Positions 9,194-45,137 of a DNA stretch of 64,000 bases are shown piece by piece. Location: the NCBI GenBank assembly GCA_002742845.1, contig DLUH01000005.1:806553-870552 (forward strand), given 5' to 3'. The position numbers were made by a program, and so were the translations under genes. The notes under the pieces are model-generated. The model searched no databases. It was not told the DNA's origin and worked only from the letters and a program-made list of their open reading frames with translations. The stretch's first letter is position 1, and the number at the start of each line of letters is the position of its first letter. The DNA is from Sulfurovum sp. UBA12169. Lineage in GTDB: Bacteria > Campylobacterota > Campylobacteria > Campylobacterales > Sulfurovaceae.

Positions 9194-10984
9194 TTAAGAA
9201 TTACAGTTTCTTATAATTAATGCAATGTTTTTACCGGCTACATTTTCTAGCTCTTCCAAAGAAGCATTTTGGATAGCTTCAAATGTGCCAAAATAATCGA
9301 TAAGTTTTTTGAGTGTGGCTTTGCCTACTCCTTTTTGATTGAGCAGGGAAATTTGGACGTCTTCTTTCCTTTTTTTGTTTTGGTGATAGGCAGCGGCATA
9401 GCGATGCGCTTCATCTCTTTGTCTTTGGATCCAATGGAGGCGCTTGTCTGAACTTTGAAGTTCTATCACTCCTTGCGGCGTATAGATAAGATCTTTTGCG
9501 GCGCCTTTGGCGCGGTGTGCTTTGGCGTCAAGTTTTTCTTTGGCAATGGCAATGACATCAAGATTGATTTTCGTTTGCTTAAGAAGCTGTATGGCAAGAT
9601 TGAGGTTGGCTTGTCCTCCATCAAGTATCCACAGATCAGGAGGAGGATTTTTTGCAAAATCGGCAATTCGTCTTGAGAGCAATTCTCTCATTTGTCCGTA
9701 TTCATCGCGTTCGTGCAGTTCGTAGCGCCTATAAGCTTTTTTGTCCCAATGGTTTTCGTTCCAAACAACCATGCCGCCCACGACAGCTGTACCCATCATG
9801 TGGGAGTTATCAAATGTTTCTATCCGGTACGGAATGGTATTCAGGTCAAAAAGATCTGCAATTTTTTGTTCGATGATAGCGTGGTTGTCTTGTTTGCGCA
9901 ACAACTCATCGCAATTTTGCATCGCCAATGCAATAAGTTTGACTTTTGGGCCGCGCTTGGGGCAAAGAATCTTTATTTTTTTATCAAATCGCATCGAGAG
10001 CGCATGAGCTACCTGTTCGCTGTCTTCAAAAGTATGTGCAGTAAGAATAGTTTTGCATACTCGGGGCACATCAGGAGGGTAAAATTCAAGAAGTGCCTGC
10101 TTGTACGCTTCATTGGCATCAAAGATATGCGTATGTCTAAAATAAGAATAAGACGAAGAGATAATTTTTCCTCCGCGCATAAAAAGTTTGACAATGACGC
10201 CTCGCTCCTCACCGTTTTGTATCGCAAAAATATCCGCATCAAGAGAGTTGGCGAGATCAACATTGGATACAGGAGCAAGAGCAGCAATCGATTTGACCAT
10301 ATCGCGCATTTTTGCCGCCTCTTCAAAGCGTTCCTGCAAAGCAAATTGCGCCATTTTTTTTTCGAGTGCCAGGATAAGCCTGTTTCGTTTGTGTATGGAG
10401 ATTTTTGCTTCTTCTATGATCCGGGCATATTCTTTGGGCGATATTTTGCCCTCACAGGGTGCAAGGCATTTTTTGATCTGGTAAAACAAACACGCTCTGC
10501 CTCCTTTGAGGCATGACTTTTTTTGTATCAAAGGATAGACCTCATAGAGTGCATCAAATAACGCTTTTCCTCCGCTTGGAAAAGGTCCGTAATAGGTAAT
10601 TTTTTTCCCTTTGACAATTTTTCGTGTGATTTCAAAACGCGGATACTCCAGGGATTCGTCCAAATAGATATAAGGATAGGTCTTGTCGTCTCTTAAAAGA
10701 ATATTGTACTTTGGTTTGAGCTGTTTGATGAGAGAGTTTTCAAGAATAAGCGCATCCTCTTCGGTTTCCACGATGATGTATTCTAGACTGTATGCTTCAT
10801 GCAGCATTTTGATAATTCGTGTGGAAAGCGTAGGATTTGGTGTAAAATCCGGAACAAAACGCCAATAGCTTTTCACTCTGTTTTTGAGGTTCTTTGCTTT
10901 TCCTACATACAGCAGTTTGCCTGCAGCATCGAAATACTGGTAAACACCCGCCAGAATAGGAAGATTTTTTATTGTCGATTGCAC
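9194..10984 (-). CDS. uvrC: Excinuclease ABC subunit C
   Basis: Nucleotide excision repair endonuclease that makes both incisions around bulky lesions bound by UvrB. The 596 residues show the N-terminal GIY-YIG nuclease (GVYQYF, YVGKAKNLKNR, about 12-90), a cysteine cluster near residues 155-175, a UVR domain (MAQFALQERFEEAAKMRD), the RNase H-like second nuclease (RIETFDNSHMMGT, WILDGGQANL) and a C-terminal helix-hairpin-helix domain. Length is normal. The start lies inside the 3' end of the upstream DUF721 gene (16-bp overlap), which implies coupled translation. Confidence 0.97.
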   Translation of the reverse strand: MQSTIKNLPILAGVYQYFDAAGKLLYVGKAKNLKNRVKSYWRFVPDFTPNPTLSTRIIKMLHEAYSLEYIIVETEEDALILENSLIKQLKPKYNILLRDDKTYPYIYLDESLEYPRFEITRKIVKGKKITYYGPFPSGGKALFDALYEVYPLIQKKSCLKGGRACLFYQIKKCLAPCEGKISPKEYARIIEEAKISIHKRNRLILALEKKMAQFALQERFEEAAKMRDMVKSIAALAPVSNVDLANSLDADIFAIQNGEERGVIVKLFMRGGKIISSSYSYFRHTHIFDANEAYKQALLEFYPPDVPRVCKTILTAHTFEDSEQVAHALSMRFDKKIKILCPKRGPKVKLIALAMQNCDELLRKQDNHAIIEQKIADLFDLNTIPYRIETFDNSHMMGTAVVGGMVVWNENHWDKKAYRRYELHERDEYGQMRELLSRRIADFAKNPPPDLWILDGGQANLNLAIQLLKQTKINLDVIAIAKEKLDAKAHRAKGAAKDLIYTPQGVIELQSSDKRLHWIQRQRDEAHRYAAAYHQNKKRKEDVQISLLNQKGVGKATLKKLIDYFGTFEAIQNASLEELENVAGKNIALIIRNCNS

Positions 10985-11418
10985 TGTATAAGCTCTTTAA
11001 TGTGTTCAAATTTCTCTTTGAGCGTCTGATCTTGCGTTTGAATCTCAAAGCAGGATGTCGAGCGTTCCTGATAATACGGGATGGTTGAAATAAGCGGTTT
11101 GCTTTCTTCGGCAGGATAGTACCTGCTGTGAAATACAATAATTTCTTGTGCCTGCATAAAGGCACATTCGGCATCATAGGTGCGCAACTGTGTTAATACG
11201 CTTTTTAATAAATCTCTATTATAATTGAGTTCCATTTTAAATGCAGGATGAGTTGTGGCCACAAAAAGTGTTTCATTTTTGACATAGACAAATGCAATAG
11301 CATTTTGGTATCTTGAGCCCAAAAGCTTAACAAATTTGTTATAGCAAGCCTGTTTTTTTAAGAATCTAAATTGAGGTTGACACGTAAGATGAGACAAAAT
11401 AACATGCGCTTTTTTCAT
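10969..11418 (-). CDS. DUF721 (DciA-like) protein
   Basis: A 149-residue protein starting at the ATG 11418; the longer upstream extension would run into nadB. The central pattern, a conserved Leu/Gly segment followed by a beta-rich NETLFVATTHPAFKMELNYN and a helix, resembles the DUF721 family. Some DUF721 members (DciA) load the replicative helicase in bacteria lacking DnaC (family knowledge); that role here is inference. The C-terminal 60 residues are poorly conserved. It is cotranscribed with uvrC and overlaps it by 16 bp. Its first codons also overlap, on the other strand, the start of the small lipoprotein gene at 11404. Confidence 0.6.
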   Translation of the reverse strand: MKKAHVILSHLTCQPQFRFLKKQACYNKFVKLLGSRYQNAIAFVYVKNETLFVATTHPAFKMELNYNRDLLKSVLTQLRTYDAECAFMQAQEIIVFHSRYYPAEESKPLISTIPYYQERSTSCFEIQTQDQTLKEKFEHIKELIQCNRQ

Positions 11419-11526
11419 AAATGCATTATAGCATTTGTTTGCTGTATGATAATGGCGGGTTGCGGATACAAAACAGACCCGGCCTACGTGCCCGATCAAA
11501 ACAATACCCTGCAAACAAAAGGATAA
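11404..11526 (+). CDS. Small LptM-like lipoprotein (40 residues)
   Basis: A 41-codon frame. It encodes a basic start (MRFFHK), a hydrophobic core and a lipobox Met-Ala-Gly-Cys at Cys20, then a polar, Pro-rich tail of 20 residues that opens GYKTDPAYVP. This is the layout of the tiny LptM/YifL-type lipoproteins, which begin Cys-Gly-x-Lys and assist outer-membrane LptD maturation in enterobacteria (family knowledge; role here inferred). It ends 4 bases before nadB and its last codons hold the nadB ribosome site, so the two are probably one transcript. Its own ribosome site is weak (AAGATGAG), which is the main doubt. Confidence 0.55.
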   Translation: MRFFHKCIIAFVCCMIMAGCGYKTDPAYVPDQNNTLQTKG

Positions 11527-11530
11527 CAGG

Positions 11531-12979
11531 ATGGACAAATATGATGTACTGATCATTGGTGCAGGGATCGCAGGGCTGTATGCTGCATTGCAATTGCCCA
11601 AAAGCAAAAAAGTGTTAGTAGTCTGCAAAGATATTCCGTGGGAGTGCAATACATTTTATGCGCAGGGAGGGATGGTTACAGCGCTTAACGAAGCCGATAT
11701 TGCTTTGCATGTAGAAGATACTATGGCTGCAGGTTCCTATCACAATAACAAGGAGGCGGTTGAAATCCTTTCCCGCACCTCGCTTGAGACTACGGCAGAT
11801 ATTATCCAAAGAGGTATGGAGTTTGACAAGGATGAGCAAGGCAACATTCTTTACACTAAAGAAGCGGCACATTCCGTAGCGCGGATCATTCATGCTGGAG
11901 GAGATGCGACGGGACGATATATGCACTATTTTATGATGGTGCAAAATATGCATCATTTGCAAAAAAATACATTGGTCTATGATCTGCTTATTGAAAATGG
12001 AAGATGTTACGGCGTCAAAGCAACAGTCAATTATGAACCTACCACTATTTATGCGGATGATGTCATTATTGCATCGGGCGGGATTGGATCGCTGTATGCC
12101 TACAATACCAATTCTCGTACCGTCAGTGCGGATATTCACGGTATCTGCGTAGAAAAAGGTATAGAATTGGCCGATATGGAATTTATGCAGTTTCATCCTA
12201 CCGTATTTGTCAAAACGCCTTTTGCCAGAAAACTGCTTCTTACCGAAGCGCTTAGAGGTGAGGGCGCGCATGTGGTAGATCAAGAAGGAAAACGTTTTTT
12301 GTTTGAGTATGATGAGCGTGGAGAGCTGGCGGGCAGAGATATTGTCGCGAGGGGTATTTTTGACTATAGGCGCCGAACAGGACAAGAGGCATATTTAGAT
12401 TTTTCAATGTTTGAAGAGTCATGGTTTAGAGAGCGATTTCCCAATATTACGCGTACTTTTGGTGCATTGGGGTATCGTTTTCCTCAAGATAGGGTTCCGA
12501 TTTCTCCGGCTTTTCATTATGCCAACGGAGGCATTAAAAGTGACACCAATGGCTGCATAGAAGGAGTGGAAGGATTGTATGTGATAGGAGAGGCTGCCAG
12601 AACAGGGGTGCATGGAGCTAACCGTTTGGCATCCAACTCTTTGCTTGAAGGGGTTGTTTTTGCCAAAAGAGCAACCGCGCACCTTTTGGGTAAAAGCCAG
12701 AAAGAGGGCAAAACACCTAAATTTGATAAAGATTACGGTAATATTCTGCACAAAGAAAACGACAAGATGTACAAGCATCGTTTGCGACAGGTTATGTGGA
12801 ATGATATAGGTATTATTCGCACATCCAAAGGATTGCATGAGGCAAAAAATCTTATCTATGACATGAAAAATAAAGAGATAGGCAGGCTGCTGAAGTTGCG
12901 TCTTAACACGGCATCCGCGATAGTCGAGGCAGCTTTGGCACGCAAAGAGTCACTTGGCTCACACTATATTGAATTATAA
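11531..12979 (+). CDS. nadB: L-aspartate oxidase
   Basis: FAD enzyme that oxidises L-aspartate to iminoaspartate, the first step of de novo NAD synthesis; under anoxia fumarate can be the acceptor (family knowledge). The 482 residues have the FAD dinucleotide motif GAGIAGLYAA (10-19), FYAQGGM typical of the succinate dehydrogenase/fumarate reductase flavoprotein superfamily, HSVARIIHAGGDATGR, the active-site block ELADMEFMQFHPT, and the FAD-contacting GEAARTGVHGANRLASNSLLEG near the C-terminal third. It lacks the long C-terminal domain of SdhA/FrdA, which supports NadB. It sits between the small lipoprotein and nhaD; nadA and nadC are not in the window. Confidence 0.92.
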   Translation: MDKYDVLIIGAGIAGLYAALQLPKSKKVLVVCKDIPWECNTFYAQGGMVTALNEADIALHVEDTMAAGSYHNNKEAVEILSRTSLETTADIIQRGMEFDKDEQGNILYTKEAAHSVARIIHAGGDATGRYMHYFMMVQNMHHLQKNTLVYDLLIENGRCYGVKATVNYEPTTIYADDVIIASGGIGSLYAYNTNSRTVSADIHGICVEKGIELADMEFMQFHPTVFVKTPFARKLLLTEALRGEGAHVVDQEGKRFLFEYDERGELAGRDIVARGIFDYRRRTGQEAYLDFSMFEESWFRERFPNITRTFGALGYRFPQDRVPISPAFHYANGGIKSDTNGCIEGVEGLYVIGEAARTGVHGANRLASNSLLEGVVFAKRATAHLLGKSQKEGKTPKFDKDYGNILHKENDKMYKHRLRQVMWNDIGIIRTSKGLHEAKNLIYDMKNKEIGRLLKLRLNTASAIVEAALARKESLGSHYIEL

Positions 12980-39797: not shown

Positions 39798-40100
39798 CTA
39801 GAGTGTACTGATATACTCTGCCACCGAACGAATCTCTTCTTTGCTGTATCTGTCTAGCAAATTCTTTTTATATATTTTTGCGATAGGCATTGCTTTCTTT
39901 TTACCCGAAGCAAACTGTTCCACATCTTCAACAATTTCTTCTGCAGACATCCCTTTGATAGCCTTTGAGTGCTCGGCAGCAACTTTCTCTCCTTCATAGC
40001 CATGGCAACCTGCGCAAGTTTTGTCATAGATTGATTTCCCTGATGCCGCACACAAAAAACCAGTCATTAAGAAAGGTAACAAAATTTTTATTTTTCTCAT
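39798..40100 (-). CDS. Small periplasmic cytochrome c
   Basis: A 100-residue class I c-type cytochrome. The start is ATG 40100, with GGAGAG 5 bases upstream; nine extra residues from 40127 are not needed. A signal peptide (MRKIKILLPFLMTGFLCAAS) is followed by the haem motif Cys29-Ala-Gly-Cys32-His33 and a likely axial Met in KKAMPIAK. It should carry electrons in the periplasm, for example to an oxidase. It has its own transcript; a hairpin between it and rpsO lacks a U tract. A role with the 43.8-kb haem porin is possible but not shown. Confidence 0.92.
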   Translation of the reverse strand: MRKIKILLPFLMTGFLCAASGKSIYDKTCAGCHGYEGEKVAAEHSKAIKGMSAEEIVEDVEQFASGKKKAMPIAKIYKKNLLDRYSKEEIRSVAEYISTL

Positions 40101-40189: not shown

Positions 40190-40966
40190 TTATGTCAGTG
40201 AAGAGAATTTATTATAAAGTTCGATTTTTGACGTGACGCGGTATTTGTTGAAAATATTTTTCATGTGTGTTTTAAGTGTATTGATCGATATCCCAAGCGT
40301 TTGCGCAACTTCACCGTAAGACATTCCGTTCAATACTTTACGCACTATTCTTTTTTCCTGTTCTGTGAGCAGTTTCATGTTTTCATCAATTCTCATGCAT
40401 TTGGAGTACACGAGGCTGTAGTGCTGATCGTACAGGGGTTGGAGCAAGGTTTGAAATACATTTTGGATGTTTTCAAGTTTTTTAAGATCGATTTTGTTTT
40501 CTGCTTGAAAGATAAAACACACAAAACCGATTTTATCTAGTTTATCAAAAGCATAAAGAGGCATCAAAACAGCTTCTTTCATCTTTATCTCTTCGGTAAA
40601 TGCTTTGGCTTCTTTCTGTGTTATTATGCCCTTGAACAGCTCAAACAGATCATGTATGGTATGGTGTTTTTGTCCGAGATTAAAATGATCGGTACAGTTT
40701 TTGACAAACTGATTCCAGTTTAGCTTTTTTTTGGGGAAAAGATATTGTATTAGCAGATGAGAAAAAAGCCTGTGTTTTTCAATAACATGCTCTACATGAA
40801 CCTTTTGGTGTTCATTGACACAGATCGCAATGATGTCCGCCTTTGATTTTTCAAGATAAAAATCACTATCCTTATGCAAAAGAGCCTTTAAGCTTCTGCC
40901 TTGAATGACACATCCTTGAATCTCTATAATCTTATGGAGAATCTCCTGGTCTGTGATCGTATGCAT
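40190..40966 (-). CDS. LuxR-type transcriptional regulator
   Basis: A 258-residue regulator with a C-terminal GerE/LuxR helix-turn-helix (LTEQEKRIVRKVLNGMSYGEVAQ, ISINTLKTHMKNIFNK). The N-terminal 190 residues are helical with no receiver signature (no phospho-acceptor Asp motif) and no autoinducer-domain motif that I recognise, so the input is unknown. Of two nearby ATGs, 40966 has AAGGAG at 8 bases and is preferred over 40972. It is divergent from the large surface lipoprotein, 198 bases away, and is its likely regulator. Confidence 0.8.
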   Translation of the reverse strand: MHTITDQEILHKIIEIQGCVIQGRSLKALLHKDSDFYLEKSKADIIAICVNEHQKVHVEHVIEKHRLFSHLLIQYLFPKKKLNWNQFVKNCTDHFNLGQKHHTIHDLFELFKGIITQKEAKAFTEEIKMKEAVLMPLYAFDKLDKIGFVCFIFQAENKIDLKKLENIQNVFQTLLQPLYDQHYSLVYSKCMRIDENMKLLTEQEKRIVRKVLNGMSYGEVAQTLGISINTLKTHMKNIFNKYRVTSKIELYNKFSSLT

Positions 40967-41164
40967 GTGCATGACTCCTTGGCAGATAATCTTTGAGTGA
41001 TTGTAGTCTACATTTTCTTAAGGTGTTCCTATTTTGTAGAAAATCACACGAAAGGGTGATGTATGCAGAATGATATTTTGCTATACTACAAATATAGTTT
41101 TGATTATATTATGATTTTATAGTAATTCAAAATCTAAAATCTATACTTAAAAAGGAAGGGAATT

Positions 41165-43699
41165 ATGATGAAAAAAAGTTTACTATCTTCATCTGCCGTA
41201 GCTCTTATAATGGGCAGTTTGCTAGTCGGATGCGGAGGAGGAAGCAGTTCGAGCTCAAGCGGAGAGGATGATCCGCTGGTGATCGAACCGCAGCCTCCGG
41301 TGACAGAGATCAACGGCACAACACTGTTGTGTGACGGAGGGGATTCGGAAGTATCGGTAGATGCAGCCGAGTTTAATGCCAGCCAAACTGTAAGAAGAAA
41401 TATCTCTTCTACTTCAAATGATCCAAGCAGCAAAAATTACCACAGAGAAAGTCCGACATCACACAATACGCCGGAGCCTTTGGATATGGTGGTGCTCTCA
41501 ACGCACGCAGACGGAAACCTGACCGAAGCCGGTGAGGCAGACACAAAAGTGCATCCGATCGTCGTCAGTTATGCCCAGCAGATCGTAGGAGACTATGAAA
41601 CGGGTATCGGAAGCGCAGATGTAGGCGATCCGACGCATGTAGACGGAGTTTTTGTGAGTTACTCCAGAGACAACGGCGATTCGTGGAAGAGCTATGTGAT
41701 CTCCGATACGACAGAGAAGAGTTCGATGCAGGTAGACTGGAACGGTACGGAGATTGAGTATCCGGGGCATGCGCAAAAACCCACCATGGCGGTAGAGGGC
41801 AACCATATCCTTGTAGCGTGGAACGACAAATACTGTCCAAGCAACAATCCGTTTGATCTTCCTCAAGAAGGCGATGATGCAAATGCCACCTATCCGACCG
41901 ACTATTTTGCCGTTAACGGGCCGCAAAAATCGATCGACTATGAAGGAGCAACGGCGTTGCCTGACGGTAAGCAGGTGTGGGAAGTACCGTTTAGCTGTGT
42001 ATGGACAGCCAGAGGTATTGTGGATCCTTCAACCGGAGATATTACATGGCATACGCCTCAACAGCTCACCACAGGGACAAGAGATTCTAACCACATTTGG
42101 ATCGCAAGTTCAAGCGCAGGATTTGCCATGTCGTGGCAAGAAGATACGGTGGGATTGCGTTCGGGCAACGGCGAAGGTCCCGGGGATGGCTGGAGCGGTG
42201 CGACAACCAATCACGGCTCGGATATCTGGTACACCTCTATCAAAATGGATGAGTTTGACGATATCAACGGGACTGATGAAAATGTAACCAAACCCAAATC
42301 GCTTTATAAATTCAACTATCCGGTGCGTATCACGGATAACGAAAAATGTTCCAATGACGATACGAAACCGTATTGCCAATATATATGTGACACTTACGGA
42401 TTTGTGACGTTGACTACCAACAACAACCAAGAAACCGAGATTACACGTTGTAAAACGTACGATACGGATATGCTGACCGATACGCAGGTTGTTTTAGACG
42501 GTGATACGGGCGCTTCCAGATCGGCGATAGAAATTCTTGTAACGGATCAAAATGAACATGTGGTGATCCTCGGATACGAAGAGACCAAAGGATTGTCAGA
42601 CAGCACGCCGGGCGAGCCTGATCAGGATCAAGGGGACAGCGAAACCAACATTTCCGTAGAAGGTAAATCGGTCTATTTTGAAAGTTTCAAATTTGACGCC
42701 CTCGATGCGTTTGACGAAACCAATCTTTCAACGATCCAAAATGTAGCGATGCCGCTGGTGAGTGCAGGAAATATTGTCAATATTAAAGTGCCTGAACAAA
42801 ACAATACTAGCAACATGATCTATGAGAATGCGCGAAGATTGGTGATCGGTACACAGGTGGATGATTGTGAGGCAGACAAATATACGTTTGCGTTTATGTA
42901 TAAACAGTCATTTGAAACCCAAGGAGGACCGGCAGATATGTATGTGCGTGTCAACCAAGGGTTTACTTATGATGATTTTGTGCCGCTAAACGGGCTCGTG
43001 GTGACCAATGTCAGTTCGCAAGCCTATAAAGTAGTGGAAAATATCGAAGATTACAACATTACATGGAGTGAAGCGAATCTTGATGACAATACGTACGACA
43101 ATGGCGAAGAAAATGTATTTTCTCCTCGTCTTTTCCTTAGAGGAAACAATATTTATGCAGGATTTGAGTATACGCCAAATGCCACCAAAACGGCTCAAGA
43201 AAATATGCCGGCGAATTTCCATATCCACAGATATGTAGACGGAAGCGGATGGCAAGGGCCTCAAAATATCACGGAAGTGCTTACAGGATGGGAAACAACA
43301 GTGGATGCGAGATTCTTTAGTACGCCTGAAGGAATGTATGACGACACCGGACTGGAATCAGACAAGAGCAATCCGAATGTATTTTTTGTGACATGGGGCA
43401 ATGTCGGCTATATCAGCAACGATAACCATGATCTAGGCAAAGCAGAAGGAGATCTTTTCTATCGACGTTCAACGGATGGCGGTGTGACATGGGAGCCTGA
43501 GCGCGTGCTTTCAAACAGAGAAAAAAGCGTCATCCAGGAAAAAGAGGTAGAGAGTTTTGCGTCACCGGATGGAAAAACGATCTACAATGTGTGGCTGCAG
43601 GATGAAGAGGAGTTTAATGCTACCGATCCGGATTCAGGTGTGGACAGCTGGTTTGGACGTGTGGATTACAATATTTCTATTGCGTCAGTGCCTGAGTAA
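41165..43699 (+). CDS. Large Asp-box (sialidase-like) lipoprotein
   Basis: A predicted outer-membrane lipoprotein of 844 residues. The lipobox LVGC (Cys23) is followed by a Gly/Ser spacer (GGGSSSSSSG) and an acidic body. Two Asp-box motifs, SRDNGDSW (167-174) and STDGGVTW (769-776), plus repeated ...AWND, VFFVTWGN and YNVWLQDE strands, suggest a beta-propeller like BNR/sialidase proteins. The sialidase catalytic Arg triad is not evident, so binding is more likely than hydrolysis. A set of Cys residues (positions near 222, 275, 393-405) may form disulphides. The gene has AAGGAAGGG before ATG and ends at a terminator. The exact role is unknown. Confidence 0.7.
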   Translation: MMKKSLLSSSAVALIMGSLLVGCGGGSSSSSSGEDDPLVIEPQPPVTEINGTTLLCDGGDSEVSVDAAEFNASQTVRRNISSTSNDPSSKNYHRESPTSHNTPEPLDMVVLSTHADGNLTEAGEADTKVHPIVVSYAQQIVGDYETGIGSADVGDPTHVDGVFVSYSRDNGDSWKSYVISDTTEKSSMQVDWNGTEIEYPGHAQKPTMAVEGNHILVAWNDKYCPSNNPFDLPQEGDDANATYPTDYFAVNGPQKSIDYEGATALPDGKQVWEVPFSCVWTARGIVDPSTGDITWHTPQQLTTGTRDSNHIWIASSSAGFAMSWQEDTVGLRSGNGEGPGDGWSGATTNHGSDIWYTSIKMDEFDDINGTDENVTKPKSLYKFNYPVRITDNEKCSNDDTKPYCQYICDTYGFVTLTTNNNQETEITRCKTYDTDMLTDTQVVLDGDTGASRSAIEILVTDQNEHVVILGYEETKGLSDSTPGEPDQDQGDSETNISVEGKSVYFESFKFDALDAFDETNLSTIQNVAMPLVSAGNIVNIKVPEQNNTSNMIYENARRLVIGTQVDDCEADKYTFAFMYKQSFETQGGPADMYVRVNQGFTYDDFVPLNGLVVTNVSSQAYKVVENIEDYNITWSEANLDDNTYDNGEENVFSPRLFLRGNNIYAGFEYTPNATKTAQENMPANFHIHRYVDGSGWQGPQNITEVLTGWETTVDARFFSTPEGMYDDTGLESDKSNPNVFFVTWGNVGYISNDNHDLGKAEGDLFYRRSTDGGVTWEPERVLSNREKSVIQEKEVESFASPDGKTIYNVWLQDEEEFNATDPDSGVDSWFGRVDYNISIASVPE

Positions 43700-43710
43700 A
43701 ACATAAAACA

Positions 43711-43730
43711 AAGCGGGCTTTGACCCGCTT
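43711..43730 (+). repeat. GC-rich hairpin after the lipoprotein gene
   Basis: Stem AAGCGGG/CCCGCTT with a 6-base loop, 12 bases after the stop. It has no U tract, so it is not an intrinsic terminator alone; it may protect the mRNA 3' end. Confidence 0.5.
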
Positions 43731-43741
43731 GATGATTGATC

Positions 43742-43782
43742 AAAAAAGCAAAAGATACCAAGTGGTGTCTTTTGCTTTTTTT
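43742..43782 (+). terminator. Strong bidirectional-type terminator
   Basis: An 18-bp stem (43742-43759 with 43764-43781) capped by a 4-base AAGT loop, with seven T at the 3' end. It separates the lipoprotein from the haem porin. A TATGAT -10 box (43785-43790) follows at once and would start the next gene. Confidence 0.88.
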
Positions 43783-43784
43783 GT

Positions 43785-43790
43785 TATGAT
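43785..43790 (+). promoter_or_regulatory. Probable -10 box of the haem-porin gene
   Basis: TATGAT directly after the terminator, 27 bases before the haem-porin ATG; leader contains GGGAGAGAGG. Confidence 0.5.
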
Positions 43791-43817
43791 GCTTAAAATA
43801 AAAAGGGAGAGAGGAAA

Positions 43818-45137
43818 ATGAAAACAAAAAAATATATAAAAGCAGCAGCGGGGATGTTTGCTTTTGCAGGGTTGAATCAAGAAGCTCAGGCATTGCCGAT
43901 GTTCAGTACGCAAACGGGGATGGATTGCAAATCGTGCCACTTGCAGCATATACCCAAGCTCAATGAATTTGGCAGAAAGTTTGCTGCTTCAGGTATGACG
44001 CTGAGTAAAAAAATATTAGACGAAAATATGACCGCAACCGATATCAATCCTTCGGTGATGGTCAAATCGCTTTATCAAAAAACGTGGGATAAACCGGGAG
44101 CATCGGGTGACGTGAGCACCAAAAGCCAAACAGAAGACGGAGAATTTTCTATCCCTAAAACAGCTACACTTTATTTGGGCGGCAGGGTAAGTGAAAATAT
44201 AGGGGGACTCGTCAATCTTTCCTATAAAAAAGAAGAAGATGAAGCCATTTCGGCAAAAGCAGCGTATGTTCAAGAAATCGAAGACGGGTTTTGGGGGATC
44301 GTAGGGTCTTCTTTTGCCGATTTTGGTCCGTTTTCTGGCATGGAATTTTATAACACAGGACTCTATAAGCCTCTAAGAACATTTGATATGAGAACACTCT
44401 CCAATGCATTTCAGGCATCCTCAATCGGTACGGGCGAATCAACGGGGTTGCAGGCTTATTATGACAAGGGCAACCTTTTTGGCACCGGAGATCATTTTTT
44501 TGTAACCGCGGGAGCGTATGCGCCGACACAGGACAATCTTTATATGGATATCGCAGACAACATTCTTCCTTTTGCCAGAATGGCATACCTATATCCTGTG
44601 GGTAATTTTAATGTGATGATGGGCGCATTTGCGATCGCCGGGGGATCAACCGTCGCATCTACGGAGTCTCTAAGCATTGAAAGAGAGACATACGGCATTG
44701 ACTTGCAGATCGAAGGAGAGATCGCAGAAAAGCTTGTTTCCTTGAATGTGGCAAAAGTATTGAAGAATGAAGTGACCTATACGGGCGTCGGCGCAGGAGC
44801 GGTTCATGAACTTGACAACTTGGACAATGAAGCATTCTCGATAGAAGGCGAAGTAAACCTTACACCTGATTTTGGCGTTAAATTGGCCTACATGAACTAT
44901 AATGACCGTTATACGTATCCAGATCACGACCATGGCGGAGAGGATCATGATCATGAATCGACCAATCAGTTTGTTGATGTAAAGGATTTGGACCATGCGA
45001 TCACCGTGGGGCTTGACTATTCGTTTGATTTTTATCTGCCTATGAAGGCCTCAGCAGAGTATTGTTGGGCAAAACCGAGTTTGGATAGAGTGAAAGATTA
45101 TGAAACACTTCTTTTTTCTCTAAATATGCTTTTTTAA
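43818..45137 (+). CDS. Cyc2-like fused cytochrome-outer-membrane porin
   Basis: A 439-residue exported protein. After a signal peptide (cleavage near AQA-LP), a single c-type haem motif, Cys37-Lys-Ser-Cys40-His41, lies in LPMFSTQTGMDCKSCH, followed by LNEFGRKFAASG; this block is very like the start of Cyc2-family proteins. The other 370 residues are amphipathic beta-strands ending in the aromatic LFSLNMLF, as in outer-membrane barrels (about 16 strands would fit, not counted by software). One loop is His/Asp-rich (DHDHGGEDHDHE, 369-380). Cyc2 moves electrons from Fe(II) into the periplasm (family knowledge); electron transfer across the outer membrane is inferred here. Confidence 0.78.
   Translation: MKTKKYIKAAAGMFAFAGLNQEAQALPMFSTQTGMDCKSCHLQHIPKLNEFGRKFAASGMTLSKKILDENMTATDINPSVMVKSLYQKTWDKPGASGDVSTKSQTEDGEFSIPKTATLYLGGRVSENIGGLVNLSYKKEEDEAISAKAAYVQEIEDGFWGIVGSSFADFGPFSGMEFYNTGLYKPLRTFDMRTLSNAFQASSIGTGESTGLQAYYDKGNLFGTGDHFFVTAGAYAPTQDNLYMDIADNILPFARMAYLYPVGNFNVMMGAFAIAGGSTVASTESLSIERETYGIDLQIEGEIAEKLVSLNVAKVLKNEVTYTGVGAGAVHELDNLDNEAFSIEGEVNLTPDFGVKLAYMNYNDRYTYPDHDHGGEDHDHESTNQFVDVKDLDHAITVGLDYSFDFYLPMKASAEYCWAKPSLDRVKDYETLLFSLNMLF

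Follow-up and report, generated by a model that had tools for sequence, protein, structure and literature searches.

Outer-membrane barrels that are combined with haem, as in MtrCAB, PioAB and MtoAB, have been proposed to pass electrons over the outer membrane. The Cyc2 family is defined by the motif AXPXFAR[QK][TY] before CXXCH, a PXL motif four residues after it and a fused 16-strand porin, and the characterized fused mono-haem cytochrome-porins oxidize Fe(II), i.e. they work inward (PMC8406198). As for surface anchoring, JDVT-CTERM proteins and the myxosortase MrtJ form a pair that occurs sporadically in beta- and gammaproteobacteria (PMC11980579). The locus described here was found in a window of 64,000 nucleotides (the whole stretch of DNA that was analyzed) belonging to a genome of 1.86 Mb (99.97% complete), the nearest named relatives of which are Sulfurovum. 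It shares the barrel-with-haem design with the MtrCAB, PioAB and MtoAB systems, but has a single haem, carried by the barrel polypeptide itself, where those systems have a separate multihaem cytochrome, and its surface partner is devoid of haem. In the sulfur-oxidizing Sulfurovum and related bacteria, porin and large surface protein are inherited together, apparently under one regulator, which points to a route for electrons or other cargo over the cell surface that is undescribed in open-licence papers.

Organization of the locus

The following features were identified in the window:

39798..40100, minus strand: small mono-haem cytochrome c of ~100 amino acids with CAGCH motif and signal peptide (Pfam Cytochrom_C, E=5.6e-10)
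40190..40972, minus strand: LuxR-type regulator of 260 amino acids with C-terminal GerE HTH (E=1.8e-11)
41043..41060, no strand assigned: LuxR-box-like inverted repeat ATCACACGAAAGGGTGAT, kept at target promoters of relatives
41082..41087, plus strand: putative -10 box TATACT, preceded by TG, 21 nt 3' of the inverted repeat
41165..43699, plus strand: choice-of-anchor O lipoprotein (NF040591) of 844 amino acids with the lipobox LLVGC at residues 19-23
43711..43781, plus strand: two hairpins between the lipoprotein and porin genes, the second terminator-like with a T-run
43818..45137, plus strand: mono-haem cytochrome-porin of 439 amino acids with CKSCH at nt 43926-43940 (residues 37-41) and a modelled 16-strand barrel

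The reading frames of the LuxR-type regulator, the lipoprotein and the haem porin agreed with those of a preliminary description of this DNA, while the divergent gap between the first two genes, given there as 198 bases, measures 192 nt (40973-41164). The cytochrome c gene, which lies directly behind the LuxR gene, was absent from that description. Its orthologues adjoin or sit near the porin gene in nearly all relatives, and its product is likely to be the periplasmic electron partner. The two hairpins (-36.9 kcal/mol, z -5.2) are kept in locus L032 and are weaker in L036. Due to the strong terminator-like hairpin between the two genes in the window, the lipoprotein may outnumber the porin in amount made.

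The haem porin and its relation to Cyc2

The porin had no match in Pfam or NCBIfam, and PDB sequence searches with O, choice-of-anchor F (the partner protein of many relatives, see below) and the porin yielded no significant match. Its AlphaFold model (pLDDT 58, pTM 0.62) revealed 16 strands within residues 75-437, with the haem region modelled at low confidence, and Foldseek related it to general porins (E down to 1e-10, probability 1.0). The proposed fusion of a single-haem cytochrome to an outer-membrane barrel was thus borne out by a model of moderate confidence. The single CXXCH motif, on whose conservation the preliminary description had made its interpretation depend, is invariant in all orthologues examined.

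The resemblance to Cyc2 (PMC8406198) comprises a signal peptide, which was read off the sequence by eye, a single N-terminal CXXCH fused to a 16-strand porin and a PXL motif after the haem site (CKSCH-LQHI-PKL in the window, ERL in two orthologues). With 439 amino acids the protein also lies above the Cyc2 length threshold of 365. Upstream of the haem site, the pattern A-x-P-x-F...QT is present as well, since the window porin reads ALPMFSTQT and keeps A, P, F, Q and T of the signature, but ST stands in place of AR. The arginine is missing from every member of the window porin clade, the Sulfuricurvum members having lysine. FARQ is mostly kept by remoter homologues in Campylobacterota and by Burkholderiales and Methylocystis plasmid proteins, and in a tree built of local homologues only, without reference Cyc2, the window clade is set apart from the local FARQ groups. 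The porin is thus Cyc2-like, as the preliminary description had called it on grounds of homology that still hold, but it lacks the diagnostic signature AXPXFAR[QK][TY] and by this published criterion does not qualify as Cyc2. A further difference from Cyc2 is the company of a surface-anchored partner (O or F) and a LuxR box.

The lipoprotein and the exchange of partners

The lipoprotein matched nearly the whole NCBIfam model NF040591 (positions 3-670; 584.3 bits, cut-off 125, E=4e-175). This choice-of-anchor O family is named for its anchors, the name saying nothing of function; here, a member is tied to a haem porin by position and promoter box. The preliminary description had regarded the protein as a partner not known before, which is correct insofar as no function has been assigned to the family, although the family itself already bears a name. 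Of its characterization as an Asp-box, beta-propeller-like protein, the Asp-boxes were recovered. Two strict Asp-boxes, SRDNGDSW at 167 and STDGGVTW at 769, exceed the chance expectation (0.009 in shuffles), and BNR and Reelin matches remained below cut-off, but the AlphaFold model, based on an alignment of four sequences, reached a pLDDT of only 30, for which reason no fold, a beta-propeller included, is claimed. A lack of MrtJ as the reason for the lipoprotein form of O was ruled out, since the window genome (G000) encodes, at a distance from the haem porin, an MrtJ myxosortase adjoining another JDVT-CTERM protein (contig C2, L125, 7361-9710).

Almost all complete loci of Sulfurovum and Sulfuricurvum pair the porin with O, with F carrying JDVT-CTERM (usually together with MrtJ) or with F and an exosortase. 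The loci are arranged as follows:

Arrangement 1, O lipoprotein upstream of the porin: window, G037/L032 and G016; remnant in G151/L036
Arrangement 1, O lipoprotein downstream of the porin: Sulfuricurvum L034
Arrangement 2, F bearing JDVT-CTERM, as a rule with MrtJ after it: L033, G003, L040, L041, L042, L037 and L039
Arrangement 3, F bearing a different C-terminal tag, with an exosortase-family protein after it: Sulfuricurvum L035 and L043
Arrangement 4, EpsL-like barrel in place of O or F: Sulfuricurvum L038

Exceptions within arrangement 2 are L037, which leaves its contig, and L039, in which no MrtJ adjoins F. In L041, the order is porin-F-MrtJ-O, and O itself carries JDVT-CTERM there. Replacement in place is evident from one Sulfuricurvum pair: L043 and L034 match by 76% through the end of the porin gene and by 94% beyond the partner, while a 2.1-kb segment with F and the exosortase in L043 stands where L034 has a 2.7-kb O segment. 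Both flanks are also common to G016 (O) and G027/G003 (F and MrtJ), and the distribution of O and F over the porin tree requires a minimum of three changes. F and O are not distant homologues; this possibility was ruled out because their alignment is confined to the C-terminal tag, besides which no shared domain was detected. Thus, the partner slot is conserved while its occupant and anchor are not, and the constant feature of the porin locus is an anchored partner, not the O lipoprotein as such. The pairing of porin and lipoprotein proposed for the window is found in relatives, but in most other porin-bearing Sulfurovum the lipoprotein is replaced by the unrelated F. The F version is present in Sulfurovum sp. 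AR.

F is presumably surface-anchored. That one slot is served by three anchoring routes suggests that selection keeps surface attachment. In comparison with the described JDVT-CTERM, MrtJ and choice-of-anchor F families (NF033191, NF033192, NF033657), the relatives have F with JDVT-CTERM as porin partner, in most cases with MrtJ behind it. Unlike the pair reported in PMC11980579, this one occurs in Campylobacterota and adjoins a haem porin, and the window itself uses a lipobox. The exosortases following F (L035:4111-4650 and L043:3410-3940) matched TIGR04178 with E~1e-13, lie under the cut-off of all named subtypes and are possibly an undescribed single-target subtype. G151 (L028/L036:5986-7370) lacks the intergenic region between LuxR and O as well as the greater part of O, a 147-aa O remnant being followed by an intact porin; the gap is either a deletion or an assembly error. 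A conserved block encoding a histidine kinase, a response regulator, a DUF2202 protein, a small protein of SnoaL-like size and two small secreted proteins flanks L020, L021, L024, L039, L083, L030 and the second O gene of G037.

The LuxR-type regulator and its promoter box

In the N-terminal part of the LuxR-type regulator, no (sensor) domain was recognized. Cys192 is invariant among its homologues, and its best NCBIfam match is the biofilm regulator CsgD, which at 39.9 bits is far under the cut-off of 250. Alignment of the intergenic regions of LuxR targets exposed the inverted repeat ATCACMC-N4-GGGTGAT, also given as ATCACCC-N4-GGGTGAT. Within 343 kb of loci, all matches of at least 12/14 positions lie upstream of O, porin, F, LuxR or a 942-aa lipoprotein gene of G010, which represents an enrichment within these loci and not a genome-wide one, since they were chosen for carrying these genes. 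In the window genome, 41043-41060 is the sole match at 0-1 mismatches. Almost all promoters of O, porin and F have 21 nt between the box and the -10 element (22 nt at one), and this fixed spacing puts the centre of the box near -41.5. Class II activator sites of LuxR-type proteins are situated near -42, so that by position, an inverted repeat there with a fixed distance to the -10 box, the site fits this class. In G380, which belongs to another family of the same order, the porin and an unlinked O gene are located on separate contigs, and both have the box at the same spacing. Nine of the ten LuxR-bearing genomes or loci possess it, the tenth being G151 with its missing intergenic region and truncated O gene; it is absent from all six loci without LuxR, the absence of LuxR having been checked genome-wide for G027 and G003 only. 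We infer that the LuxR-type protein of the locus binds the box, and the conserved box offers a handle on the inducing signal.

G380 harbors two tandem haem porins and two tandem LuxR paralogues (L060:6543-9241 and 10866-12539). In G010 (L083:9074-11902), the 942-aa lipoprotein, which belongs to no known family, is encoded between the LuxR and F genes and has a LuxR box in front, and there is no porin.

Co-occurrence of porin, partners and regulator

Porin, F, LuxR and MrtJ were surveyed in 61 Sulfurovum genomes and O in 120 genomes of the family and 298 of the phylum, so that the O survey does not extend to all 61. Many of the relatives are metagenome bins in which contigs break off within the locus. 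The porin clade occurs in nine of the 61 genomes; G023, the tenth genome with a match, encodes a divergent type. All five genomes with F are among these nine (Fisher 2e-5, ignoring relatedness), as are all seven with full-length LuxR homologues (Fisher 8e-8, again ignoring relatedness). O gave four matches in the family sample and three in the phylum sample, every one in a porin-bearing genome, so the co-occurrence of porin and lipoprotein, a second finding on which the preliminary description relied, was confirmed. MrtJ exceeded its cut-off in 12 of the 61 genomes, a wider distribution than that of porin and F, and thus serves other targets too. Since F had no match in the phylum sample, which left out known F-bearing species, the genus sample was used for this protein. 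A plasmid collection, the sole sample outside Campylobacterota, yielded no O and a single distant F; the latter lies on an Acinetobacter plasmid, and its surroundings include no annotated haem porin. Around plasmid genes for Cyc2-like 'cytochrome C', neither O nor F was present in the four loci examined.

Proposed function

We regard the locus as an electron conduit of the outer membrane that is controlled by LuxR and combined with an exchangeable non-haem partner anchored at the surface, a reading to which we assign a probability of about 50%. A putative LuxR-type activator, responding to some signal, would bind the inverted repeat near -41.5 and switch the surface module on. The mono-haem cytochrome-porin would span the outer membrane and relay electrons between the outside and the periplasmic mono-haem cytochrome c, while the partner at the outer face (O here, F elsewhere) might hold the donor, a mineral or the porin. 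A receptor or mineral binder fits best; candidate donors are Fe(II), reduced sulfur and a mineral. The homology of the porin to Cyc2-like proteins and the cytochrome c gene close by make electron conduction its most likely role. Surface exposure, electron transfer, its inward direction and the role of the partner are what we infer from these relationships, and electrons may be taken up or released. The reading as a whole is supported by the retained CXXCH and PXL motifs, the 16-strand model, the recurrent cytochrome c gene, the co-occurrence of the porin with O, F and LuxR, the in-place exchange and the repeated O/F changes on the porin tree, the box with fixed spacing (also at the unlinked O of G380) and the JDVT-CTERM of F with MrtJ or an adjoining exosortase. 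The type II secretion protein GspD, which is encoded in the window genome, was also counted in favor. Counted against it were the presence of one haem in the porin and none in O or F, the loss of the Cyc2 arginine, the terminator-like hairpin parting O from the porin in the window, the Sulfuricurvum locus without O and F, and a second O in G037 without an adjoining porin.

The locus is a concrete candidate for electron exchange of sulfur-oxidizing Campylobacterota with solids or other cells, and it offers a functional context for two families named for their anchors, choice-of-anchor O and F. More tentatively, and with the odds rather against it, the locus may represent a new class of outer-membrane redox modules, each an obligate combination of a mono-haem porin with an interchangeable non-haem surface receptor (O or F) that selects the extracellular donor or acceptor and is anchored by lipobox, myxosortase or exosortase. 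A swap of the receptor would then retune substrate use in sulfur-oxidizing Campylobacterota.

The lack of haem in the partner, two Asp-boxes hinting at a propeller-like binding protein and the ordinary solute porins found as the closest folds of the barrel would also suit a receptor-porin uptake pair, in which the partner traps a solute, metal or polymer at the surface for passage through the barrel (cf. SusD-type lids), with the haem as redox gate or structural plug. We consider this unlikely, as the haem motif is invariant in the clade and in distant homologues and the cytochrome c gene recurs, which suggests redox work. Slightly less likely still is an outward-working conduit, which would hand electrons to an acceptor outside, for instance Mn(IV), sulfur or another cell. 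Sequence sets no direction, a Sulfurimonas was reported to oxidize sulfide with manganese(IV) oxide, and a Sulfurimonas bin contained electron-transfer genes, though a complete conduit was not found there (PMC11748539). The inward direction of the conduit is nevertheless favored because of Cyc2 biochemistry, the characterized fused cytochrome-porins being Fe(II) oxidizers (PMC8406198). Finally, it is improbable that LuxR governs an attachment or biofilm regulon of surface adhesins with the haem porin merely co-regulated, to which the CsgD match and the porin-less contig 222 of G010, with LuxR, the 942-aa lipoprotein and F under boxes, might point, since the porin also stands beside its partner where LuxR is absent (Sulfuricurvum; Sulfurovum G027 and G003), and the pairing is thus independent of the regulon.
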